Virus record (IMG/VR): IMGVR_UViG_3300003690_000163 | Location: 1-30,211 of that record | DNA from: a virus | Strand: one strand, 5' to 3' | DNA length: 30,211 bases | Part shown: one piece after another, positions 2,785 to 24,792 of the stretch | How positions within the stretch are numbered: the stretch's first letter is position 1 | Layout of the letters: the number at the start of each line of letters is the position of its first letter | Made by a program: the position numbers and the translations under genes | Notes under the pieces: generated by a model | What the model saw: only the letters and a program-made list of their open reading frames with translations | Database searches by the model: none | What the model was told of the DNA's origin: nothing

Positions 2785-3825
2785 TCACCATTTTCGTCCC
2801 ATAATATGCGTGCCGCTTTCTATGATTCCTGGCGTGGTTTGCCGCACAAACTGAGAGCGCGCTTGCATTTCTTCCAGCGTTCTGGCGCCCGAATAGGAAA
2901 ACCCAGATCGGATGCCACGAGACAAATCTTCAAGGATGTCCGTTACAGATCCACGCAAGGGAACTGTCGTGGAAACTCCTTCCAACGAAGAGTACTTCCC
3001 TCGCCAATCTCGCTGGGCTTCCTTGCTCGCCATCCCTCGATATATCTTCCAGCGATCGCCCTTTTTGCTGGTGATGATTTCACCGGGCGTTTCATTAGTC
3101 CCTGCTAGTAGCGAACCTACCATTACAAGATCGGCTCCGGCTGCGAGGGCCTTTACAATATCCCCGGACGTTTTGATGCCGCCGTCTGCGATGATTTTTA
3201 CATCGCGGTCTGTTTTTGCACAGTCCATAATTGTTTGAAGACCCGGCATGCCGTGGCCTGTTTGAACGCGGGTGGAACAAATAGAACCCCCACCGATATT
3301 ACAGCGCACAGAGTTAGCACCCCAATCTGCTAAATCGTTAATAGCCTCCAGGGTCGCCACATTTCCTGCCATGATATGAAATTCATCCCCTAGCGTACTG
3401 CGCAGAGTGCGGAGGGCCTCTTTCATTAAAACATGATGACCGTGAGCGACGTCGACGCAAATAAACCGAGCGCCGGCCCGTCTTAAAATAACAGCGCGTT
3501 TTAAAAAGTCGCCGCTAATGCCGACTGCACCCCCTACTAACTGATACTTTTCCTCTTTTAGCGCCTCACCAATAGAGGCTATCATGGTTGCCTGTTCTTC
3601 TACTGTATTATAACGATGAATAACGGCGCCAGCCCCTTGATTCGCCATGGCAAGCGCCATATCTACTTCTGAAATGGTGTCCATTGGGGCCGATATGATC
3701 GGCAGTTCCAGCGTAAGGTTCTCATCTAGCCTGGAAGATATGTCAATCTCCGCACGTGAGCGAATGTCAGAGTACTGGGGCACTAATAATACATCATCAT
3801 ACGATAGGCAATCATCCCTCTTCAT
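2785..3825 (-). CDS. IMP dehydrogenase / GMP reductase family enzyme
   Basis: A (beta/alpha)8 enzyme of purine nucleotide interconversion. Visible motifs (numbering from an alternative ATG at 3846): the N-terminal [25 protein letters not shown] near 131-138, the phosphate-binding and catalytic loop [11 protein letters not shown] with Cys190 as nucleophile, [28 protein letters not shown], and [10 protein letters not shown]. There are no CBS domains; about 346 residues is the size of bacterial GMP reductase. The loop after the second phosphate site ([10 protein letters not shown]) looks more like GMP reductase than the IMPDH Arg-Tyr flap, so I lean to GMP reductase. I chose the inner ATG at 3825 because the outer one leaves no room for a ribosome site. 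It would adjust host guanine pools during infection. Confidence 0.88.
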
Positions 3826-4168
3826 TTTGTTTTCTCTTTCTGGCATCCCTTTTAGATGCTTCTAAAATCTTCTGCTTCTTGCGAGCGCGCTTTAATGTAG
3901 GAGAACGATCTTCGGTGATAACCAGTGACTCTCCCGGCTCTTCCGCTTCCTCTTCTTTTTCGGACTCAGATGGGAGGCCTTCCCCAAAATATTGTTGCAT
4001 TGTTATCATGGCGCCCTCTAGGCGCGCCAATACAATCGCTTGCTGAGCAATCTTTTCAGTTGTGCCGGCTTCAGGCGCCTGTTTAAGCAAGTCTTTAATA
4101 ATTCCATATGACTCTAAAGCTTTTGCCTTCAGGTACAGAATGGACGAATGTGCTATCTCTTTTGACAT
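3812..4168 (-). CDS. Small charged protein, unknown function
   Basis: 118 residues. The ATG at 4168 follows AAGGAG by about 10 bases; a TTG 21 bases upstream lies before that site and was rejected. The first 65 residues look helical (EIAHSSILYLKAKALESYGI and on). Then comes an acidic stretch, SEKEEEAEEPGE, and finally a strongly basic tail of Lys and Arg that would suit nucleic-acid or protein contact. No family is recognised. It overlaps the IMPDH-family gene by 14 bases and sits 4 bases after the thioredoxin gene, so it belongs to the same operon. Confidence 0.75.
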   Translation of the reverse strand: MSKEIAHSSILYLKAKALESYGIIKDLLKQAPEAGTTEKIAQQAIVLARLEGAMITMQQYFGEGLPSESEKEEEAEEPGESLVITEDRSPTLKRARKKQKILEASKRDARKRKQNEEG

Positions 4169-6621: not shown

Positions 6622-7227
6622 TTATTTAAATGTAAATTTAATATCAACCTTTATTTTTAATTCAGGCACATAGAGATGATTTGCCAATTTGTGTTTTTTG
6701 GCTTCATCGGCGTCTAAAAACCAGTCTGCATGTCCTTTCTGGTGGATGATGTCAAGAAAGTAATCCTTAGATTGTCGACAGTTTTCAGCCATCATCTGAT
6801 ATATCTTAGTGTTTAGGCGCTCGGTTTCCTCCGCGCCGGCTTTGATTTCTTCGACTTTCCCCCACTTCATTGAACTCACATCGTGAATCATGAGAGTGGC
6901 ATCTGGATCCATGTAGCGATAGCCTTCGGTGCCGAAACTAAATAGCAGTGCACCGCACGACATGGCCTTTCCTTGCGCGATTGTTGCTACCGGAATCTTT
7001 GAGTGTTTAACATCTGAGATCATCGACATTAAACTATAAACCTGTCCGCCGTAACTATCGATAATAACGGGCACAACTGGCTGACCTGTGTTCTGCGCGA
7101 CAGATATTTGATCTGTGAATTCTTTGGCGCCGGCCTCGTCAAACTTTTTTACTCGAATGATCACAGGCAAGTCATCTATAAGTTTGGGCTCTTTTAAAAG
7201 GGGACTAAAATATTTTATTACATTCAT
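6622..7227 (-). CDS. clpP: ClpP-like serine protease, copy 2
   Basis: 201 residues of the ClpP fold. IIDSYGGQVYSLMSMI (about 55-70) is the glycine-rich binding loop, Ser90 in GKAMSCGALLFSFG is the nucleophile, His115 in LMIHDVSS the base, and Asp168 in HADWFLDADEAKKHKLAN the third triad member, so the triad is complete. The N-terminus lacks the usual axial loop and the C-terminus is a short strand-rich tail, so it may not pair with a ClpX-type unfoldase. It overlaps nothing but starts immediately after the QueF-like stop, with GAGG as ribosome site. Its substrate is unknown; prohead maturation or host-protein processing are both possible. Confidence 0.9.
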   Translation of the reverse strand: MNVIKYFSPLLKEPKLIDDLPVIIRVKKFDEAGAKEFTDQISVAQNTGQPVVPVIIDSYGGQVYSLMSMISDVKHSKIPVATIAQGKAMSCGALLFSFGTEGYRYMDPDATLMIHDVSSMKWGKVEEIKAGAEETERLNTKIYQMMAENCRQSKDYFLDIIHQKGHADWFLDADEAKKHKLANHLYVPELKIKVDIKFTFK

Positions 7228-7644: not shown

Positions 7645-10600
7645 CTATCCTAATAGCTTGAAGGTTCTTCCAATGGCATAGGTACTGAATCCCCAATTCG
7701 GATCGTATTTAAGGGATGCCATATAAGGACGATTCAACTGAATGCAATCCTTCTCGGGTTTTACTCCCCAGCACCTAATTCGCGTCAACTCATTATTTGA
7801 ATCTATAACTTCTACAATCCAGTAAAGTTTGCCGTTCTTCGTTTTCCTAGGAACAATCTTCCGCGGAATAAACCAACAAACTTGTAGGGCGGGGTCAAAC
7901 TCTGAAATTGGAGGGATAAATTTTTCTTAAACTGAATGATCTCTTCTTCCGAGAAATCTCCTTCTGGCTTGTAGAGTTCAAGATTCTCGGCAAATTTCTT
8001 AAGACTCTTCGGACGATCAACGACACACGTTGACCAAAAATGCTTGCGTCCTGTAAATCTATCATCAACCAGATTGTCTAAGGCGCCGCCGCGAGTCAGA
8101 GCATCCATCGCTTTCTTGTTGAGTTTGCTGTAAGAGACTCCCTCCCTGAACAAAAGATCTTCTGCGTTCATGAAGGGTCGGTTATCGAGTACTTGTTCAA
8201 TCGCCGCCATCCCCAGGCCCTTGATGGAAGTCAGAGGCTGAATGAGGGTCTTGCCGTCGTCGCTAATCTCCCACACGGTACCAGACTGGTTGATATCCAG
8301 AGGCGCAATGTCAAATCCAAACTTCTTTGCGATGTTAATTGCCTTTTCTTTTCTGGTCTCAGGCTCTTTGTCCAAGAACGCTGCCATCCATTCGGCCGGA
8401 TAGTAATTCCACAGCCATGCACACTGAAAAGAGATAATAGAATAACTCACAGCGTGAGACTTGTTAAACCCATAACCGGAGAAGTATTCAAATTTGTCCC
8501 ATAATGATTGTGCGTCGTCTCTGCGCACGCCGTTCTGGGCACACCCGCTAATAAACTTATCATGCAACTTACCTTTAACGCTGCCTTTGCCGGTGCCCTT
8601 CTTCGTTAGCACCTTGCGCAGTATGTTGCCCTCATCGAGAGTCAGCCCACCTAACTTGTGAGCAAGAAGTGCGATCTGTTCTTGAAAAATTAAGAACCCA
8701 AATGTTTCCTGCGTGATCTCGCGAGATTCCTCAGAGAGATACGAAATTCGTTGGGGGTGTTTCTTTGCCTCCACGTAATCCGCATCCACACCCGCCGATA
8801 AGGGGCCCGGTCGGAAGATAGAAGTTACCGCTGAAATATCAATGATGTTCCGTGGCTTTACCATGGTGCAGAATTTTTGGGCGCCCTGTTCTGTGAACTG
8901 AAAGATGCCGGCCCATTTGCCAGCGTGGAAAATGTTTTCATATACGTCTTGGTCGTTAAAGTCTATGACATCGGGATGAAGATGTTCGTTATAATAGGAT
9001 AATACTTGTTCAAAAGTTGGAGTAGCAACCCCGTGATGACGTCTGAGGATATGCTCAATGCACCCTTCCATCATCTTAAGTGTGGAGAGCCCAAGCAAAT
9101 CAAACTTAATGAAGCCCATCGGCTCAAGGTGTCGTACGTTTTGGCCCTCGGCCCAGGGCGCCTGTCGCACCCCTCCTGAGTTAATAAGCGGCATGCTACG
9201 ATCTAGATCTTCCGCAATCACAACGCCGCCCGCATGCCGAGAGCATGATCGCACTTGACCAACAAGCCCTTCAACACGAGCCTTTACTGCTGGATACTTG
9301 TTAAGATAATTTTGGAGAGAGGGCGAATATTCCATCACCTCTTCCCAGGTAGGATTATAGACGCCGGCCTTTACCCCGTGCTTCTTTTTGGCTTCGGGAA
9401 TGGCTTCTCGTATCATCACAGACGTAACGGTGTTTGCCTCCGTAAACGGAATGTTGTATAACTTTGAAATGTCTTTAATGAGGCTTCGAAGTTGAAGTGT
9501 GTTCCAATTAGAGATAGGCGCGACACAATCTTCTCCCCACATTTCTACCAGCTTTTCCTTAAGAGTCATGCTGTCAGACACATCGTAATCAATATCTGGA
9601 TAGTCGGTTGCATCTGATCGCAGGAAACGGCTAAACAACAGGCCGTGCCTTATTGGATCGACCTGGGTGATTCCTAAACAGTATGCAACGAGAGAGCCGG
9701 CGGCAGAGCCGCGGCCAGGCCCGGTGAACATCATGCCCGTGGCCACGTCGACAATGGATTTCATTGTTAAAAAGTATTTGGAGAATCCGCGATCATCGAT
9801 CACATTCAGTTCGTGCTGGAGTCGCTGGACATATTCAGGATTATGATGCAGATTGCGTGCCTTCAAACCTTCTATTGCAAAATTAACAAGTGCGCCGCTG
9901 TCAGTAAAACCTGCCGGCACGACAAAATCAGGGAGCCGTACAGTATTATCAGGCAGAAAATCTTCAATTCTTCTAAAGGCGATTGCATGAGTTTCCTCAA
10001 TACTTTGTAAGACTAAGTCATCTTTGTATTCTACTTTACATTCTTGAGAGTACTTTTTGTAGCTCTCCCACATCTGGTCTCCATTCTTGGGATAAAGTTC
10101 ATATCCAATTTCATCAACGCCGGCCGGAAGGTCAGACTCTTCCTCGGCCCACGACGGCTTTCCTCGTCCAAGCCATCCTAACCGCTTATAAAGTTCGCGA
10201 TCTTTCCAGGCGTCTGGATTCGGGTAATGGCTGTCGGCTGTGGAGATAAGTTTAACACCCATTTCAGTAGCAATTTGAATAATGTATTGGTTTAACTCAT
10301 GTTGCTCGGGGATGTTGTTCCACTGCAACTCTGCGTACCATCGATCACCGAAGATCTCTTGCATGTTCATGGTAGTATCGCGCATGGCGTCTACAACGGC
10401 GTCTACGCCTTCTTCGCGGTTTTCCCAGTAGTTACCCGCATATACACCTCCGAGACAAGCAGAGGCCGCTATAACCCCCTCATTGTACTTCTTAAGCAGT
10501 GCATAGTCCAAGCGAGGATAGCGATAAAAATTCTCTGCCTTATAGCTCTCGGATACCAATTTAAAGAGATTGTTCAATCCTGTTTGATTTTGCGCGAGAA

Positions 10601-11009
10601 GAATAAGATGTCGGCGACGACGAAGGATCGACTGAAGCTTCTTGCTATCGCCTTCATCTTCGACGGTAGCGCCCGAGGCAGTATCCTTCTTAATGCTGCG
10701 TGCCTTCTTTTTGTCTTCCATCGCTTTGGCGTACTCGGTGCGCCAATCATCAAGAGAGGGAAGGAAATACGCTTCGCACCCAAAAATAGGTTTAAAGTCT
10801 TTTTCCTCTTCCTTCATCTTCTTTGCATGCAAGACCTGATACGCTAAGCCGTTCATGTTGCCATGATCAGTTAGTGCTAATGCATCACAACCATTTTCAT
10901 ATGCGAAATCCATATGCGCTTGCGGGTATCCTACCGCGTCAAACAGGGAGCCTGCCACACTATGAGCATGAAGGCCGACAAATTTAATGTTGGATTGATT
11001 TCTTTGCAT
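7645..11009 (-). CDS. dnaE: DNA polymerase III alpha subunit (DnaE-type, family C), interrupted by a -1 frameshift
   Basis: Replicative polymerase. Residues 10-90 and about 255-265 form a PHP domain (GLHAHSVAGSLFDA, ALTDHGNM, STADSHY). The palm has GPGRGSAAGSLVAYCLGIT (431-449) and the metal-binding Asp472 and Asp474 in PDIDYD, with SRHAGGVVIAED and IKFDLLGLSTLKMM further on. GYGFNKSHAVSYSIISFQ lies in the fingers. AAGGAG precedes the ATG. The zero frame stops at 7812 after 1065 codons with a non-homologous tail. Shifting -1 at A AAT TTA (7923-7917) gives 90 more residues, including an OB-fold-like segment (VCWFIPRKIV, KNGKLYWIVEVID), and ends at 7645, 3 bases before the next gene. Full product about 1121 residues. 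Either programmed frameshifting or one missing A in the A5 run explains it. Confidence 0.93.
7917..7923 (-). promoter_or_regulatory. Candidate -1 ribosomal slippery heptamer in dnaE
   Basis: On the minus strand, in the dnaE zero frame, the bases read A AAT TTA, which fits the X XXY YYZ rule and equals the Rous sarcoma virus gag-pol slip site. Slipping back one base puts the ribosome in the frame encoding the conserved C-terminal domain. I see only weak stems downstream (CCAAT with GTTGG), and no well-placed stimulatory ribosome site upstream. Confidence 0.5.
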
Positions 11010-17037: not shown

Positions 17038-18411
17038 TTACTTCCTATTTCTAAATTTTTCGTATTTGTTTTGCAGCAAATCTTTTTGCATACTCGTGCT
17101 CAACGCTACAGGGTTTAGTGGGATAACCCCGTTTGTCGTGCCGTTGGTGTGCGATATTATTTTAATATGCGCAATAGACGGATCCATAAATATATTATAA
17201 ATCATTCCATCGGGTCCATTTCTATTTTTGGCAATAAACATTTTCCCTCGATTGTTCTGTTTATCTTCGACGGTGCGAGAAACTGAAAAGATGAAATCAG
17301 CAACAAAGCACTTGTTAAATGCTTCTGAAATCTGCTCCATTGTAATAACTTCGGCATTCAATCCTGAGCGGTTAGTCTGCGATGCGGTCCACACCGGACA
17401 TTGAAACTCTGTTGAAATGGCGCGAAGGTCTTCATAAATAGATTCCAACTCATTTCTCTTCTCTTTTCTTGGCACTACGGGCCTTAAAAGGTCCGCATAA
17501 TCAACGATAATTATTCCCGGCTTGATGCCTCTCTTCAACAACTTGGTAAGGTGGGATTTAATGGTATTAGTTGATGCAGATTTGGTAGGATATTCTTTAA
17601 TAATCAATTTTCCATTGATGTTTTTAATCTCTTCGTAAATCTCTTCCTTAAAATTAATGATATCAGAAAGCGGGTAACCTGTTAAGCAACTATCGTACCT
17701 GCTGGCAATAATAGTGTCTTGCAGTTCCAGTGTATAGTGGATCACCACTTTCCCCTCTTTTAAGCCTTGAGTTCCTAAATGAACGAGACAAAAAGATTTG
17801 CCGGCCCCAGTGGGCGCGATCACAACCCCGAGTTCACTTTTCCCTAAGCCCCCACCACAGATGGCATCAATCTCTTTCCATCCAGTAGTAACAGGAAGAC
17901 GATGTTTGGGCACGAATCGAGCCTCAAAGTCGGCCAAATAATCATAACCAAAATTAGTGTCTGACCCTAACTTAAGAGAATCATTAATAGTTTTGGAGAT
18001 CTCGTCAAAAGAACAAGATTGTAAAAGATTGACTGACTTAAGCATCGCCTCTTTAAGATTTTGCTTGCGACAGAAATCCAATGATTGCTCTTTTATATAT
18101 GCAACGTCCGTAAGATCTTTGGCGACAATGCGGGAAAAATAATCACGCACTTGCTTGCGCACCACATCATCTTCATCATCTAGATCCGTACGCAAAATTG
18201 TGATCATTGCTTGGGCTGATGGGTGTGTGCCGTAACGCTCTCTGTATGACAGAATCTTCCCTACGAATACGCGCAAATATTCGAGTTCGAGAAAATTAAC
18301 GTTCAGGACTTCGGTGATCTGATCGGCAAAAGGGCGATCCTCATAAATGAGTTGAATCAAATCCTCTTGGAAGACCTTACCATATCTACTAAAACTAGCT
18401 TTTTCGATCAA
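17038..18411 (-). CDS. Replicative DNA helicase, DnaB/T4 gp41-like
   Basis: 457 residues. An all-helical N-terminal region (1-165) is followed by a RecA-fold motor: TTGWKEIDAICGGGLGKSEL, Walker A APTGAGKS (199-206), the DnaB-type Glu after VVIHYTLEL, Walker B IIIVDYADLL (Asp304), the sensor WTASQTNRSG, and KNRNGPDG near the end. This unwinds the fork 5' to 3' as a hexamer. The start codon is TTG at 18411 with GGGGTG 5 bases upstream; no in-frame ATG lies before conserved sequence. A promoter at 18436-18463 gives it its own transcript, shared with the reductase downstream. No separate primase gene is visible in the window. Confidence 0.92.
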   Translation of the reverse strand: MIEKASFSRYGKVFQEDLIQLIYEDRPFADQITEVLNVNFLELEYLRVFVGKILSYRERYGTHPSAQAMITILRTDLDDEDDVVRKQVRDYFSRIVAKDLTDVAYIKEQSLDFCRKQNLKEAMLKSVNLLQSCSFDEISKTINDSLKLGSDTNFGYDYLADFEARFVPKHRLPVTTGWKEIDAICGGGLGKSELGVVIAPTGAGKSFCLVHLGTQGLKEGKVVIHYTLELQDTIIASRYDSCLTGYPLSDIINFKEEIYEEIKNINGKLIIKEYPTKSASTNTIKSHLTKLLKRGIKPGIIIVDYADLLRPVVPRKEKRNELESIYEDLRAISTEFQCPVWTASQTNRSGLNAEVITMEQISEAFNKCFVADFIFSVSRTVEDKQNNRGKMFIAKNRNGPDGMIYNIFMDPSIAHIKIISHTNGTTNGVIPLNPVALSTSMQKDLLQNKYEKFRNRK

Positions 18412-18468: not shown

Positions 18469-19425
18469 TTAGGATTCTGCATTGATTTTATTTAGGTGTA
18501 ATTTTAGGTCTTCCCAGTTCAATTCGCCGAACCCATCGTCGCGCATTTTCTTTATAATCTCTATCTTATTGAAACTACACTTAAAATTCTCCACTGCGTT
18601 CTTAATAAAGTCTTTGGAATAGATTGAAAGGAGCGGAGAATAAAGCTGCATCATTGAATAATTATGCTCAATTATTTTTTTGCCCTCGATAATATTCACA
18701 TGAAACTTAAGTTTTGAAGCAGTCTTTTCACAGAATTCCACCACATCGTCAATAGTGTAATCCTTATCTGATCCTAAGAAACTAAGGCGTTTCTGGATAG
18801 TCTTAAATCCGACGCTCTTAATGCCCGCCAGATTGTCGGATGCGTCTCCAACCAAAGAGCGAGCCAGCGCCATATTGCGGGGGTGAACGCCGAGTTCTTC
18901 CACAATGCGCGTCTTATTATAAACGATGTTGCTGGTAGGGCGATACACCACCGTTTCATCATCACACAATTGGTAGAAATCCTTGTCGTTTGAGACAATG
19001 ACTTTCTGCCACCCCTTATAGTGTGGCATTTGGGTGAGATATGAAATAACGTCGTCGGCTTCCACTTCGGGAATCATCACCTGCACGATTGGCATTTCAT
19101 TGAAGTATTCGATGGCGCGCGTCTGCTGCCAAACTTTGTTCCGCAACTCTTCGTCTTCGCTGAGTGCTTTCACATTCCGGTTTAGGCGAATTGGCTTGCG
19201 ACCCTCTTTGTAGTTCTTATCCATGGATCTCCGCTTTCGGGATCCATTTGGGCCATCCCATACAATTACAATGTTGTTGGGTTTAATGGTGCGAACCAGT
19301 TTTTGAAGGATTTTAAGGGATCCTTTAAAGCCTCCGATGGGCTCCCCATTCGTCGAGAGTGACGGATCTACAATATACGCTCTCAAAAACATATTGAGCG
19401 CATCAATAATCAATACTCTGGGCAT
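18469..19425 (-). CDS. 5'-3' exonuclease / flap nuclease (T4 RNase H, Pol I 5'-exo family)
   Basis: 318 residues. It removes RNA primers and flaps. Acidic metal-binding motifs are in order: Asp8 (VLIIDALN), Asp57 (VIVWDGPNGS), EVEADD (120-125), SNDKDFYQL (145-153) and GDASDN (193-198), the last leading into a helix-hairpin-helix DNA-binding loop, LAGIKSVGFKTI. The basic stretch SRKRRSMDKNYKEGRKP (62-78) corresponds to the helical arch. The stand-alone nuclease complements the family A polymerase in this window, which lacks a nuclease domain. AGGAGG lies 8 bases before the ATG. A promoter is at 19455-19483. Confidence 0.93.
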   Translation of the reverse strand: MPRVLIIDALNMFLRAYIVDPSLSTNGEPIGGFKGSLKILQKLVRTIKPNNIVIVWDGPNGSRKRRSMDKNYKEGRKPIRLNRNVKALSEDEELRNKVWQQTRAIEYFNEMPIVQVMIPEVEADDVISYLTQMPHYKGWQKVIVSNDKDFYQLCDDETVVYRPTSNIVYNKTRIVEELGVHPRNMALARSLVGDASDNLAGIKSVGFKTIQKRLSFLGSDKDYTIDDVVEFCEKTASKLKFHVNIIEGKKIIEHNYSMMQLYSPLLSIYSKDFIKNAVENFKCSFNKIEIIKKMRDDGFGELNWEDLKLHLNKINAES

Positions 19426-19491: not shown

Positions 19492-20619
19492 TTAGGTGGG
19501 ATCAGAATAGAACTGTTCTGCCGATCCTTCTCTTTTGTCGAACTTTTGAACAACTTCTTGGTTCATTAATTCTATAACGTGCTCACGAAACTCTTCGTCT
19601 GTTTGCACCAATTCAGCCCATTTAGACGGCTGGAATTTCTTCTCGTATCCGTCGTCTGTCTTAAGTGTGTACCATGCGCCCGCACTTGTCATATGATCCG
19701 AATTCTTGATTGCATCAAACCATGACTCTTCGTCTCTAATACCTACATCCTCGGTGCCCCATAGAATACGGAAGGCACAAGATCTCCCTTGCGTGCCAAA
19801 TCTAGATTTCTCAATCTTCGCTTTGACTTCTGAACCAATCCGAAAGCCCTTCTCATCCTCGACAAAGGCCGCTTTTGCCTTTCGACCCGTTAGCCAAATC
19901 CGCAAGGAATATGAATAATGAAGCGCCTTCCCACCAGGGGTCATGTAAGGGGTGGTCATTGCAATAATGCGTGCATTGGGCCCTTGTGGGATATTGGTCT
20001 TAAGTTGATTAAGAACCAAAAAAGTGGCCTGCTTGTCGGCGATAGGAATAATCAACTTGGACATTCCCTTGGCCAGAATGCGTGCCTTGACCGCCATCGA
20101 TGATTGGGGGTTGAAGTCACCTTCTACATCCGACACCGATGGCGTCAACGCCAGAGAGTCCCAGATAAACAATAGCTGTTCATCGGTTGCTCCCAACAGT
20201 TCTTCCACGGTTTCTAACACAAACTCGACAGATGACGCCTGAACGTACATTAAACGCCCTAGGTCGCATCCTGCTCGCTCCAAGAAGCCTGGGTCGATAG
20301 CTGACTCGGAATCGAAGTAAACGACCATCTTGCCCGTTTTCTGGGCGTTTGCGGCAACTTGCGCTGCCATGTAGGATTTGCCGGTGCTCTCAAGCCCGGC
20401 GAGTTCCGAGACTTTCCCAACAGGGATGCCCGCTACTTGCCCCCTGCAAACAATAGAGTCCAACCAGCGCGAGCCAGTCGGGATCCATTCCTTCACTTCT
20501 GTCGGGTTGGCGCCTGTTAGATCATGGGCGACATGGCGGCCGGCTTTCTTGTTTACAAGGTTCATTAGGTCGTGCATCGAAACTCTGCCGGCTTTTGGTT
20601 CTTTAGATTTTCTGGACAT
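19492..20619 (-). CDS. uvsX: RecA/UvsX-family recombinase
   Basis: 375 residues, starting at ATG 20619; an ATG 51 bases upstream lies inside the tRNA and is rejected. Walker A is GLESTGKS (75-82). VVYFDSESAID, LLFIWDSLAL (Walker B) and FLVLNQLKTNI (sensor) follow, with TTPYMTPGGKALHYSYSLRI as the RecA MTTGGNALKFYAS-type L2 region. The long bacterial RecA C-terminal domain is replaced by a shorter tail like UvsX. It would catalyse strand exchange for recombination-dependent replication together with the SSB. The tRNA 3' end is only 24 bases upstream, so tRNA and recombinase are likely on one transcript from the SSB promoters. Confidence 0.95.
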   Translation of the reverse strand: MSRKSKEPKAGRVSMHDLMNLVNKKAGRHVAHDLTGANPTEVKEWIPTGSRWLDSIVCRGQVAGIPVGKVSELAGLESTGKSYMAAQVAANAQKTGKMVVYFDSESAIDPGFLERAGCDLGRLMYVQASSVEFVLETVEELLGATDEQLLFIWDSLALTPSVSDVEGDFNPQSSMAVKARILAKGMSKLIIPIADKQATFLVLNQLKTNIPQGPNARIIAMTTPYMTPGGKALHYSYSLRIWLTGRKAKAAFVEDEKGFRIGSEVKAKIEKSRFGTQGRSCAFRILWGTEDVGIRDEESWFDAIKNSDHMTSAGAWYTLKTDDGYEKKFQPSKWAELVQTDEEFREHVIELMNQEVVQKFDKREGSAEQFYSDPT

Positions 20620-20643
20620 TTTGCCTTCTTGGTATAAATAAAA

Positions 20644-20719
20644 TGGATGCAGGGGATGGATTTGAACCACCGACCTCCGGGTTATGAGCCCAGCGAGCTA
20701 CCAACTGCTCTACCCTGAC
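20644..20719 (-). tRNA. tRNA-Met(CAT), initiator type (tRNA-fMet)
   Basis: A 76-base cloverleaf with encoded CCA. D stem GAGC/GCTC, anticodon stem CTGGG/CCCGG around loop CTCATAA (anticodon CAT), variable AGGTC, T stem GGTGG/CCATC around TTCAAAT. Initiator hallmarks are present: position 1 unpaired with A72, purine 11 (A11:T24), and three stacked G-C pairs next to the anticodon loop. The acceptor is weak: 5' GTCAGGG against CCCTGCA leaves 1:72 and 2:71 unpaired. The discriminator is T rather than A. Most of the body matches E. coli tRNA-fMet. It sits between the SSB and recombinase genes. Confidence 0.92.
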
Positions 20720-20773: not shown

Positions 20774-21541
20774 TTACTTGTTGGTCATTAATTCATCAAA
20801 CGCTCGGTCCACATCGCTTTTATCGCTTCCGTATTTGGTGGTTTCCGTCGAGCGGCTTTCAGCACTTCTATTGCCAGCAAGTTGTTCATCAAGAATTGCA
20901 TCGATTTGTTCTGGAGTATGACGCTCAAAGAGAGAATCAAAATCAGGGATGCCATCAAGGAGGGCGGAGATGGCTTCTGTATCCTCCAGAAGCGGCGAAG
21001 TGTTACGACGCATCTTAAGACTTGTTTGGGGGTACGCGCCCGGGGTTGTGGGCTTCGTATAAGTGAGGGCAATATCGGTACCTTCAAGAGTATCAGTAAT
21101 GTCCCCATAGTCTGGGTCTAGAATGTAGCCCAGAAGATTTTCATAGGCTCGCTTGCCATAGCCATAAAACTTAACTCCCTCAGTTTCACGACCACGGATT
21201 ACGACAGGTGAGAAAAAGCGTGCACGCACAAATAGCGACTTGGCAAGCTTCTTGCTCTCTTCATCATTCTTATCCGTTCCTTCGCGCCATAGCGCAGAGG
21301 CGAATTCGCAAATTGGGCACTTATCTCCAAAATTGCGTTTGGGGCAAAGGATTCCGCCCCGATGATCTCCCACGTTATAGTGGAAAAACATTTCCTTCAA
21401 AGGATCGCCGTCCGGACTGGGTACAATCCGAATATCCTGATCCCCTTCCTCTGGTCGAAACCAGGGTGACTCCGACGAATCGGTGCCTTCGCCGCGAAGT
21501 GCGGCTAGCTTCTTTTTCATTAGTTCCATGTTAATTGACAT
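20774..21541 (-). CDS. Single-stranded DNA-binding protein, T4 gp32-like
   Basis: 255 residues. The N-terminus is basic (MELMKKKLAALRG), as in the gp32 cooperativity domain. The core has a gp32-type zinc site: His60 (or His54), Cys66, Cys75 and Cys78 in ILCPKRNFGDKCPIC, close to T4 gp32 C-x9-C-x2-C. Then comes an OB-fold with KSLFVRARFFSPVV and FYGYGKRAYENLLGYI. The last 60 residues are acidic and flexible, ending DRAFDELMTNK, the usual docking tail. AAGGAG precedes the ATG. Two promoters (21593-21621 and 21804-21832) and an inverted repeat in the leader (21570-21590) suggest careful control of dosage, as known for gp32. Confidence 0.88.
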   Translation of the reverse strand: MSINMELMKKKLAALRGEGTDSSESPWFRPEEGDQDIRIVPSPDGDPLKEMFFHYNVGDHRGGILCPKRNFGDKCPICEFASALWREGTDKNDEESKKLAKSLFVRARFFSPVVIRGRETEGVKFYGYGKRAYENLLGYILDPDYGDITDTLEGTDIALTYTKPTTPGAYPQTSLKMRRNTSPLLEDTEAISALLDGIPDFDSLFERHTPEQIDAILDEQLAGNRSAESRSTETTKYGSDKSDVDRAFDELMTNK

Positions 21542-21592: not shown

Positions 21593-21621
21593 AATATAAC
21601 ACTCTTAACGTATCTCGTCAA
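21593..21621 (-). promoter_or_regulatory. Sigma-70 promoter for SSB, proximal
   Basis: On the minus strand: TTGACG (21621-21616), a 17-base spacer, TATATT (21598-21593) with TG one base before the hexamer. Ten of twelve hexamer bases match. It overlaps the stop codon of the tubulin-like gene and would start about 45 bases upstream of the SSB ATG. Confidence 0.65.
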
Positions 21622-22463
21622 GAGTTTTTTTGTTGTTGTGTCGCATTTGTGTGGGCTACGACAAACCCAAAATCGTTGTAAGGTGTTTCATAGATGGCAT
21701 AAGAAATTTTACGAAACGCATTGGATGGTTTCTTTTTCAATAAATCCACTATCTTTTTATGCAAGCGACCCTCGGTCGCCAATCGTTCCTCATTTATACA
21801 TAAATAATAACACAGATCGCGCTCCATGTCAAGGTTAAAAAACCATTTTTCTTCTAAATTATCAACATTCAATGCTCCAATGGAGCGAATGCGATTGATG
21901 TGGCCCGGTTTCGCCACCTGACCAATCTCAGGCTCCGCATGAGTAAAATAATTTAAATAATGCACTGATGAAAATATCGTATTGTTTAGCACATCGTAAT
22001 AACTTTTGATGGGGACATTTCCTAATGTTTTTTCTATTTCTTCGTTTGAAAAAACTGTGAAAGAATCCATGAGCCCTGACCGAGCATACTCTTGGAGAAC
22101 CCCAAATACCACATTCTCTACAAGGCGCGGAATGCCAGTAATTAATTCGATATCGGGCTTCACGTAAAAGACTTCTATCCTTTTATTTTTCATTTGTTGT
22201 AAAATGCCCAGCGCATAATTTGAACTAGAAGAAGAGCCCACTATAAAGATCTGAATACGATCTTTTAAGTCTTTGAAAAACTTGGTTAAATCGGGAATAT
22301 TCTTTTCATATTCTTCTGGCTCTTTGTACGATTTTAATCTAAATTTCCGAGAAGTAACCCTCTTTACATTGTTATTCATGGTATAAACATCATACTGGTC
22401 AATCTCGCTGAATTTTTCAGCGATTGCAGAGCCCCCGTTTCCTATGCCTATAATTGAAATCAT
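21618..22463 (-). CDS. Divergent tubulin/FtsZ-like protein
   Basis: 281 residues. The pattern follows FtsZ: IIGIGNGGSAIAEKF (4-18) as loop T1, VYTMNN as strand and loop T2, IFIVGSSSSSNYALGIL (72-88) at the T4 phosphate loop, VFYVKPDIELITG (98-110) as T5 (FtsZ VVTKPFxxEG), then VVFGVLQEYARSGLMDSFTV and SNEEIEKTLGNVPI like the helix and NDKLL segment, and GALNVDNLEE (197-206) at the catalytic T7 position (FtsZ NVDFADV). The T4 glycines GGGTGSG are replaced by a serine run, so nucleotide use may differ. It is shorter than FtsZ, with a brief basic tail. It is coupled to the polymerase gene by ATGA overlap. Recognised by eye from motif order; a structure comparison would settle it. Confidence 0.65.
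   Translation of the reverse strand: MISIIGIGNGGSAIAEKFSEIDQYDVYTMNNNVKRVTSRKFRLKSYKEPEEYEKNIPDLTKFFKDLKDRIQIFIVGSSSSSNYALGILQQMKNKRIEVFYVKPDIELITGIPRLVENVVFGVLQEYARSGLMDSFTVFSNEEIEKTLGNVPIKSYYDVLNNTIFSSVHYLNYFTHAEPEIGQVAKPGHINRIRSIGALNVDNLEEKWFFNLDMERDLCYYLCINEERLATEGRLHKKIVDLLKKKPSNAFRKISYAIYETPYNDFGFVVAHTNATQQQKNS
21804..21832 (-). promoter_or_regulatory. Sigma-70-like promoter inside the tubulin-like gene
   Basis: On the minus strand: TTGACA (21832-21827), a 17-base spacer, TATTAT (21809-21804) with TG one base before it. Eleven of twelve hexamer bases match and the spacing is ideal. It lies in the 3' part of the coding region and would be a distal second promoter for the SSB gene. Confidence 0.5.
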
Positions 22464-23653
22464 ATTGAAATTATCTCCAAGTCCTGATAGTTTTGGCCTG
22501 CTTTCAAGTTTACCACAAACTTACCGAGTTTGTTTTCAGAAAAAAGATCTCGAATTTCATGTACCAAGTCGCGATCTTTGCTGCAAAAATCGATTATGAT
22601 TTCATCATGGACGATGTGAGAAATAAACGATTCTCTGTCTTTCAACACTTCATCAATTGCGACGGCGCGATCCAACACCAAATCTGCGGTGGTACTTTGC
22701 AGCAAGTAATTCAGGGCCCTGTAATGATCAACTTCGATATGCCTCCCAAAAATCGTATGAATATATCCATCTTTATAATGCATCTTAAGCGCCTTTTCGC
22801 GATCATAACATGTATCCTTCTCTTTTATAACCGTGGAATGGTCATTATAAAGCCATCCAAAAAACTCAGTTTTTGCTTCGTCGCGTGTCATACGTGGGCG
22901 CTTAAAAATGTTGCGAATATTCCAATTGTGAATGTCCTTTTGTGGTTGTTCTTCCTTTAAAAGACCCATTAAAGTGCGCACTTCGGCGCCGTTGTAATCT
23001 AACGATAGAAACCAATCGTTATGAGGCTTTATAAGTTGACGCAAATCTTTTCTCAAAGTAAGCATTGGAAATGAGCGGGAGTAAGTTGTAAGACGCCCTG
23101 TGGCTGTTCCAAAAAGATTGTAATTAATATATTTGGGGCTTTGTAGAAGCCGCTGTACCATATACCGTGTAGTACTATTCGCAAGAAGCGCTTTTGTATT
23201 GGTGGTGCTGATGTTTAAATTTTGGTATTTAATCTTGTATAACAACTTGTCTACTTTCTCTAGGTGACTGTAGTGGTCAGGTCGCGGAAGAGTATCAAAA
23301 ACATCTTGTGTAATCTGATTTCTTGCTTCGCAAAATTCTACTAAAAAGTCGTGGGGCACCAAATCGAAAAAGCAATGTTCACGAAAGTCAATTTTTCCAA
23401 TATCGAATGACTTTTTATAGGCCCTCATTTTTCTTTGTAAGCGTTCCCACTCATCTTTAATTTCTTCTGGGCACACTTCATCCAGTGATTGACCATCCGC
23501 ATAAATCCATGCATATTCCACCTCCCTGTCTTTTAAGGAGCCGGTATATTTCCAAGTTTTGGTAAGATTGGTGGGTAAATTGTCAAAATGGAGTGCACCA
23601 TTGGTATACACACCAATGCACTTGCTCTTATCATCCAGGCTCTGAAAAATCAT
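22460..23653 (-). CDS. Compact family A DNA polymerase without exonuclease domains
   Basis: 397 residues. The polymerase signatures of the Pol I family are present: TATGRL (183-188), motif A SLDYNGAEVRTLMG with Asp219, the O-helix RxxxKxxxFGxLY pattern at Arg257, Lys261, Phe265-Gly266 and Tyr269 (motif B), and motif C HDEIIIDF (349-356). The first 140 residues carry neither the DEDD proofreading motifs nor a 5' nuclease, and the thumb is short; a typical Klenow fragment is about 600 residues. The stand-alone 5' exonuclease at 18469 could supply the missing activity. Start and stop are both ATGA overlaps, coupling it to an upstream probable tail gene and the downstream tubulin-like gene. A repair, primer-extension or replicative role is undecided. 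Confidence 0.9.
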   Translation of the reverse strand: MIFQSLDDKSKCIGVYTNGALHFDNLPTNLTKTWKYTGSLKDREVEYAWIYADGQSLDEVCPEEIKDEWERLQRKMRAYKKSFDIGKIDFREHCFFDLVPHDFLVEFCEARNQITQDVFDTLPRPDHYSHLEKVDKLLYKIKYQNLNISTTNTKALLANSTTRYMVQRLLQSPKYINYNLFGTATGRLTTYSRSFPMLTLRKDLRQLIKPHNDWFLSLDYNGAEVRTLMGLLKEEQPQKDIHNWNIRNIFKRPRMTRDEAKTEFFGWLYNDHSTVIKEKDTCYDREKALKMHYKDGYIHTIFGRHIEVDHYRALNYLLQSTTADLVLDRAVAIDEVLKDRESFISHIVHDEIIIDFCSKDRDLVHEIRDLFSENKLGKFVVNLKAGQNYQDLEIISI

Positions 23654-24792
23654 TTAATGTGTCCACATAAGGAGCGATAAACTCCGTTAGACTTGTAAAG
23701 CTCTATACAGTCATCATATAAAATACTTAACTCATTATCAGATGGGGGCGCCTCTTCTTCAATACTTCTTATCTTAAAGTATAAGTTTAAGAAATAGGCT
23801 TCCGAATAGCGGGATAAAAATTCGTTTAAAGCATATTTGCGGGGGTAAACCTTTTTGGAAATAGTGGCTCCTTGACATTCTTCTTGTTCGCGAAAACTAT
23901 TCGGGGTAACCCTATTATATAAGTTATAAAGATCATATTTGAATCTATCCCTATAATATGTCCCGTGGACGCGAGAATAGCCCAAGTTGAGTATTTCATC
24001 GGTGCCTCGCAAGTTATATTGAGATACATAATGTTGCATGCTTTCAGAATCAATATCGGCTACTATGCGCCAGGGAATATTTTGATCAATCATAAATCCA
24101 TAAGAATTACAAGCATTTACAAAAAAATCCCAATTCATACTATCGATAAAATCCTTTATTTTTTGGTCGTCGTTTGTTACATCCAAATCGGCAATTTCCA
24201 GCGCCAATCCCGAAGAGGCGATGGAGCAATATCTACTTTTAATAAAACCCGGTTTAGTAAACGCTATTTTCCCCGCTGAATCAGTGAGCATCGCTAAGAG
24301 TTCTACAATAAATTCATCAAAATTTCTTACCTTTCTTTGTTGATTTTTAAATTGCTGGGCTAACGCATTAAAATATTTTCTGAGGTGTTCGGCATAGGCT
24401 ACGGGAGGCTCTATATAGGCCTTATAAATCGTCAAATTAGACAGAAATGGATCCGAAGTGTTAATCTGCCCGGTTGCTGTGCATTTGCGAAATTGCTGCG
24501 CCATATCATTAAAAGCGTCCACCACAAAATTAACTGCGGCAGCACGAGAGGACGCGACGGCCAAAAGATCTTGATTGAATCGTTTTAACTGCAACCTGCC
24601 GCCTGCTACTAACTGAATGGGCACAAAGAAGCGATTCACGCGTCCATAAAAAAACTTTTCACCAAAATTAAAATCAACGATATGATCATCGCCATTCGCG
24701 CCGGCCTCGATTAACCTCCCCTTATATAAAGTTTTTTTACGAAAAAGATCTTTGGCTGATTCAAAATTTCCTTCTGCATAAAAAATTGACAT
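23650..24792 (-). CDS. Probable virion protein, unknown function
   Basis: 380 residues with AAGGAA before the ATG. It is mixed alpha/beta, aromatic-rich, with no signal peptide, membrane segment or Cys cluster. Notable stretches are SYGFMIDQNIPWRIVADID (about 234-252) and a Tyr-rich run YYRDRFKYDLYNLYNRV near 282-298. It follows the large baseplate-like gene in the same operon, so a tail or baseplate part is the simplest reading, but I do not recognise the family. Its stop overlaps the start of the family A polymerase (ATGA), placing the border between the structural and replication modules on a shared message. Confidence 0.75.
   Translation of the reverse strand: MSIFYAEGNFESAKDLFRKKTLYKGRLIEAGANGDDHIVDFNFGEKFFYGRVNRFFVPIQLVAGGRLQLKRFNQDLLAVASSRAAAVNFVVDAFNDMAQQFRKCTATGQINTSDPFLSNLTIYKAYIEPPVAYAEHLRKYFNALAQQFKNQQRKVRNFDEFIVELLAMLTDSAGKIAFTKPGFIKSRYCSIASSGLALEIADLDVTNDDQKIKDFIDSMNWDFFVNACNSYGFMIDQNIPWRIVADIDSESMQHYVSQYNLRGTDEILNLGYSRVHGTYYRDRFKYDLYNLYNRVTPNSFREQEECQGATISKKVYPRKYALNEFLSRYSEAYFLNLYFKIRSIEEEAPPSDNELSILYDDCIELYKSNGVYRSLCGHIK

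Follow-up and report, generated by a model that had tools for sequence, protein, structure and literature searches.

We analysed a 30,211-nucleotide stretch of viral DNA (the window; IMG/VR record IMGVR_UViG_3300003690_000163), which belongs to a lineage of uncultured viruses with T4-like genes. Its minus strand carries a replication operon that includes tub1, a gene whose product, Tub1, almost certainly has a tubulin/FtsZ-like fold. The genes of the operon and the segments of Tub1 considered below are listed in Table 1.

Table 1. Genes of the replication operon and segments of Tub1 in the window
Feature	Position	Strand	Basis
tub1, divergent protein of predicted tubulin/FtsZ fold, 281 aa	21618..22463	(-)	ORF, AlphaFold model, Foldseek, relatives, dN/dS
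T1-equivalent GIGNGGSA, residues 6-13; G6, G8 invariant	22425..22448	(-)	column counts
T4-equivalent GSSSSSNY, residues 76-83	22215..22238	(-)	between S4 and H4 of model; column counts
T5-equivalent VKPDIELITG, residues 101-110; P103, D104, L107 invariant	22134..22163	(-)	model, column counts
T6-equivalent SNEEIE, residues 139-144; N140 invariant, proposed guanine contact (E. coli FtsZ N165)	22032..22049	(-)	column counts, weak ftsZ match
Predicted core helix H7, residues 155-175; aromatic 156 and invariant N160	21939..22001	(-)	model, column counts
T7-equivalent segment AEPEIGQVAKPGHIN, residues 176-190, without NxDxxD	21894..21938	(-)	model, column counts
Family-A DNA polymerase, 397 aa, overlaps tub1 by ATGA	22460..23653	(-)	PF00476 (DNA_pol_A) E 2e-13
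X380, 380-aa protein without known family, overlaps polymerase gene	23650..24792	(-)	ORF, family searches
gp32-like ssDNA-binding protein (SSB)	20774..21541	(-)	PF08804 E 5.7e-13
UvsX/RecA-like recombinase, same operon as tub1	19492..20670	(-)	PF00154 E 1.8e-32
5'-3' exonuclease	18469..19425	(-)	PF02739 E 3.7e-28
DnaB-like replicative helicase	17038..18411	(-)	PF03796 E 1.7e-18

The ATGA overlap of tub1 with the family-A polymerase gene, from which the original prediction had argued for a replication-linked role, is real in the window. We examined 131 Tub1 loci, counting for each position only those with room on that side. The family-A polymerase lies immediately upstream of tub1 in 120 of 120 loci and the gp32-like SSB immediately downstream in 117 of 117, while X380 is found further upstream in all 88; past the SSB follow RecA/UvsX, the exonuclease, DnaB and a class II ribonucleotide reductase. 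This perfectly conserved place between polymerase and SSB supports a replication-linked role; a direct link of Tub1 to the replisome has, in our estimate, an even chance. Elsewhere on the same strand the window carries a full DnaE-type polymerase (7812-11009), alongside the short family-A enzyme (palm motifs recognized by eye), an IMP dehydrogenase-like gene (2785-3846), whose product might enlarge the GTP supply of a tubulin-bearing virus, and two ClpP/head-protease-like genes (370-1011 and 6622-7227), about 6 kb apart and away from the head genes.

tub1 is a real gene under purifying selection. A first scan with simple patterns gave 53 relatives (51-73% identity), and a profile search found relatives in at least 516 stretches. 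The median dN/dS was 0.063 (51 close pairs), indicating strong purifying selection. Since the relatives span 279-288 aa, the length of 281 residues, earlier regarded as an oddity, is ordinary. At two loci, L217 (G002) and L225 (G027), the match to the Tub1 profile crosses a stop codon (TAA and TGA), probably reflecting a variable C-terminal tail. No relatives were found among 50,697 phage records or in a cellular genome collection of 84,980 species; one alignment of 51 residues between phage G and this family's profile (E 0.007) was treated as chance. Sequence searches of Pfam, PHROGs, NCBIfam and PDB sequences gave no identity for Tub1, apart from a weak match to NCBIfam ftsZ (E 0.003), in which residues 132-168, the S6-H7 stretch, align with FtsZ profile positions 164-200. 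This match (TIGR00065) scores 17 bits, well under the curated cut-off of 295. The Pfam search of Tub1 found neither PF00091 nor PF22334, the phage tubulin C-terminal domain present in phiKZ PhuZ.

Structure prediction pointed clearly to a tubulin. The template-free AlphaFold model of Tub1, made with 37 sequences, is confident (pLDDT 86.8, pTM 0.88) and has the order S1-H1-S2, S4-H4-S5-H5-S6-H6-H7, then a C-terminal mixed domain. It thus presents a Rossmann-like N-terminal domain, a long central H7 and a C-terminal mixed sheet. When the model was compared with the PDB by Foldseek, all 50 matches listed were FtsZ or TubZ (E 2.3e-12 to 2e-10), nearly all with TM 0.61-0.74. In a viral library, the best nine matches were two orders of magnitude clear of the rest, and the named ones among the nine were FtsZ, tubulin or PhuZ, except for one uncharacterised Vibrio phage protein. 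The fold that had been proposed from the motifs is therefore borne out by the model and by both sets of structure matches, and we have very little doubt that Tub1 has a tubulin fold. The tubulin Rossmann core and H7, whose absence had been named as the finding that would speak against the proposal, are both predicted (H7 at residues 155-175). Among the checks that had been suggested, structure prediction gave the tubulin fold, and profile comparison by hhalign (Tub1 against single FtsZ or Tub2 sequences or a Tub2 profile; Tub2 is the second tubulin described below) gave nothing significant.

Because such profile comparisons with FtsZ or Tub2 were not significant, the mapping of Tub1 residues rests on predicted secondary structure. 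The motifs quoted in the original prediction are present (GIGNGGSA at 6-13, GSSSSSN at 76-82, VKPDIELITG at 101-110 and NEEIEKTLGN from 140), and we counted residues column by column in 100 distinct Tub1 sequences. The glycine-rich T4 signature is lost throughout the family, GGGTG[ST]G occurring in 0 of the 100. Its replacement is G-[STA]-S-[YLMF]-S-S-N-Y, with G76 and L85 in every sequence, S/T78 in 92, S80 in 96, S81 in 93, N82 in 89 and Y83 in 97. The serine run does not hold as a family trait; it belongs to this copy in particular, with Tyr at residue 79 in 54 sequences, Leu, Met or Phe in 39 and Ser in only 3. The assignment of NVDNLEE (199-205) to T7 also fell, as this segment sits past strand S7 in the model and D201 occurs in 4 of 100 sequences; the predicted T7-equivalent comes after H7, at about residues 176-190. 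No NxDxx(D/E) motif appears in the segment so mapped. Residue 177 is Glu or Asp in 96 sequences, and residue 179 is Glu in 85, with His, Ile, Gln or Leu in the other 15%; with these acids, residual catalysis is possible.

The guanine pocket tells a different story from T4 and T7. N140, an aromatic residue at 156 (Y/F/H) and N160 are each found in 100 of 100 sequences, so that, by the secondary-structure mapping, Tub1 has both the T6 Asn and the H7 aromatic-x3-Asn/Asp pair. The proposed counterparts are N165, F182 and N186 in E. coli FtsZ, and N226, Y243 and N247 in Tub2. The spacing is N-x15-aromatic-x3-N in Tub1, N-x16-F-x3-N in E. coli FtsZ and N-x16-Y-x3-N in Tub2, the H7 pair itself being spaced like FtsZ F182/N186 and the tubulin Y/N pair. 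With pocket residues kept and T4 and T7 changed, guanine recognition looks retained and phosphate handling remodelled; hydrolysis by Tub1 is probably impaired. At the level of sequence, the data support the earlier suggestion that Tub1 may form a new branch and handle nucleotide differently. Tub1 is most likely a tubulin homologue that has diverged far and become catalytically degenerate, apparently a pseudo-GTPase.

When long contigs with Tub1 were searched for PF00091, a second tubulin emerged, Tub2 (379-382 aa), which scores above the Pfam cut-off and matches FtsZ in NCBIfam (ftsZ, E 9e-14) and, by sequence, in the PDB (E 1e-10). Its T1 (GVGGGGNKM) and T4 (GGGGGTGSS) are in place, and the T7 aspartates D271 and D274 are invariant in 17 sequences. 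At least 183 viral stretches contain Tub2, which shows no detectable sequence similarity to Tub1. Its structural model is of low confidence (pLDDT 49), and the Foldseek matches of that model, to CetZ and FtsZ, do no more than agree with the sequence evidence. The gene is preceded by an SbcCD-like nuclease gene, and terminase and portal follow it at a distance of 4-6 kb. The acidic N-terminal tail of Tub2, 66 aa long, is nearly invariant (L133:1039-2187, L134:1033-2172, L135-L214), and identity to one query was 88-100% in the best 80 IMG/VR loci, unusually slow evolution for a phage gene. Around Tub2 (L204, L151, L135) we observed many small genes with common N-termini, MKITKSQLKQIIKEEL, KLLMENWRKFVNE and RRIDPRYFMDEKTDIIKEE, which may resemble the capsid-targeting sequences of T4 internal head proteins; one small gene there has a weak ParB-like match.

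All 10 contigs of sufficient length carry both tubulins, with Tub2 upstream of Tub1 on the same strand and 39.0-46.3 kb between. A further 17 of the 31 contigs surveyed have Tub2 only and reach at most 33 kb downstream; the remaining four have Tub1 only and reach at most 38.8 kb upstream. As these single-gene contigs end before the other gene is expected, the 31 contigs hold no counterexample to co-occurrence. Three contigs measure 194-196 kb, one needing circular wrapping, which suggests a genome of about 195 kb for these viruses. The window ends short of Tub2, and to judge from the sequences of its relatives, its own genome would carry the gene. Pairwise identity in the same ten genomes is 90-98% for Tub2 (mean 94%) and 50-88% for Tub1 (mean 61%). 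The second tubulin, which lay beyond the view of the original prediction, changes the reading of Tub1.

By terminase, the nearest cultured relatives are Microcystis phage Mel-JY01 (44%) and Flavobacterium phage immuto (48%). Both have SSB, RecA, exonuclease and helicase in the same order without Tub1, and neither gave a match to the Tub1 or Tub2 profile. Tub1 is thus a lineage-specific part of an operon older than itself, either gained in these viruses or lost in the relatives. Two unrelated small genes occupy the Tub1 slot in immuto; the idea that they are a split tubulin was dropped, as they show no family or sequence resemblance. A weak host hint comes from a Flavobacteriaceae metagenome assembly, in which a binned contig (L240, PAAD01000063.1) carries a Tub2 fragment of 95% identity; this agrees with the terminase similarity to immuto.

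PhuZ positions phage DNA by dynamic filaments, and its catalytically dead D190A variant forms stable, non-dynamic filaments (PMC4244570). A natural tubulin lacking the T7 motif, in the company of a canonical one, points to a component, be it subunit, cap or anchor, that fails to trigger hydrolysis. We propose that Tub2, coded near terminase and portal, would supply a dynamic GTP-driven filament, and that Tub1 would bind guanine nucleotide without driving normal hydrolysis in the neighbouring subunit, entering Tub2 filaments as a subunit that does not hydrolyse, or capping or anchoring them. Made with polymerase and SSB, Tub1 might recruit or stabilise these filaments at replicating viral DNA. 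We put this model forward tentatively, its chance as a whole being slightly under even, and judge the functional partnership of Tub1 and Tub2 in itself to be a little short of evenly balanced. Co-occurrence is weak evidence for interaction, since any two core genes of one lineage would show the same. Against a partnership stand the very different rates of the two proteins (mean identity 61% versus 94%), where tight co-evolution might predict closer ones, and their separation by 40 kb, outside a common operon. The more ambitious version, a two-component cytoskeleton in which Tub1 co-assembles with or caps Tub2 and so links genome replication with positioning and packaging, as a viral equivalent of hetero-tubulin systems, is rather unlikely.

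The invariable place between polymerase and SSB, the remodelling of the nucleotide loop and of T7, both with a part in polymerisation, and the 40 kb to Tub2 would fit another reading, in which the tubulin fold serves replication as an accessory that makes no filaments, such as a clamp or adaptor for the small family-A polymerase or the SSB, and acts independently of Tub2. We consider this less likely than not, because the invariance of the guanine-pocket residues would be unexpected if nucleotide binding had been lost, the whole tubulin core, H7 included, is retained, and the related operon works without Tub1. Less likely again is an independent filament-forming phage tubulin, binding and hydrolysing GTP by means of unconventional loops (a serine-rich T4, with E177 and E179 as T7 acids) and positioning or segregating viral DNA like PhuZ or TubZ. 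The SSNY kept in the place of T4 (S80 96%, S81 93%, N82 89%) and the acid at residue 177 in 96% agree with it, and an H7 one turn shorter would bring E179 near the T7 acid; yet E179 is replaced in 15% of sequences, whereas the Tub2 T7 aspartates are invariant in 17, and the PF22334 domain of PhuZ is lacking. That Tub1 is instead a Rossmann-type dinucleotide-binding protein (GxGxxG), as weak N-terminal Pfam matches to NAD(P)-binding families (E 0.02-0.06) might suggest, is very improbable, as these matches are below cut-off and vary among members, and the fold rejects a dehydrogenase identity, the whole chain matching FtsZ/TubZ at E ~1e-12 and nucleotide-sugar epimerases more weakly by many orders (E 5e-3).

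Tub1, as the proposed degenerate partner of Tub2, can be set against known systems. Archaeal FtsZ paralogues that have degenerated are on record (PMC2875224), and much is known of PhuZ and TubZ as phage tubulins (PMC7950403). Tub1 and Tub2 belong to this known superfamily; the degenerate family and the two-tubulin combination appear new, and we found no description of a phage with two tubulins, or of the Tub1 family, in the open-access literature searched. With FtsZ (TIGR00065, PF00091) Tub1 shares the predicted fold order, T6 Asn, H7 aromatic-x3-Asn pair and short C-terminus. Unlike FtsZ, it is without GGGTG[ST]G, the GAG of T3 and the NxDxxD of T7, has a shortened S2-S4 region, matches the profile at E 0.003 at most, and is encoded in a viral replication operon. 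PhuZ of phiKZ and 201phi2-1 is likewise a viral tubulin fold, and viral PhuZ is among the Foldseek matches, but phiKZ PhuZ has PF22334, a glycine-rich T4 (GGASGS) and the T7 acids, all three missing from Tub1. TubZ (plasmid/phage c-st) shares the tubulin fold, 2xka being among the top PDB matches; the matched chains, however, have 379-410 residues versus 281 and no sequence similarity. TubZ belongs to a partition locus with TubR/tubS; the genes directly beside tub1 code for polymerase and SSB. Tub2, CetZ/FtsZ-like and with Bacillus phage G gp138 as its nearest named relative, shares superfamily and genomes with Tub1 and differs in its canonical T1, T4 and T7 aspartates, its conserved acidic tail and its high identity between genomes.

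In BtubA/BtubB and alpha/beta-tubulin, two tubulins act together, with one interface impaired in hydrolysis. We propose these as a functional analogy; they are close heterodimer paralogues, whereas no similarity is detectable between Tub1 and Tub2. As sequence annotation misses tub1, viral tubulins are probably under-counted. TubZ and PhuZ have been described as one gene per phage, with an intact GTPase, whereas the Tub1 lineage has two tubulins. If our reading is true, a lineage with two unlike tubulins, one a pseudo-GTPase in a replication operon, would widen the scope of viral cytoskeletons and offer a testable system for the control of filament dynamics by a non-hydrolysing tubulin subunit.
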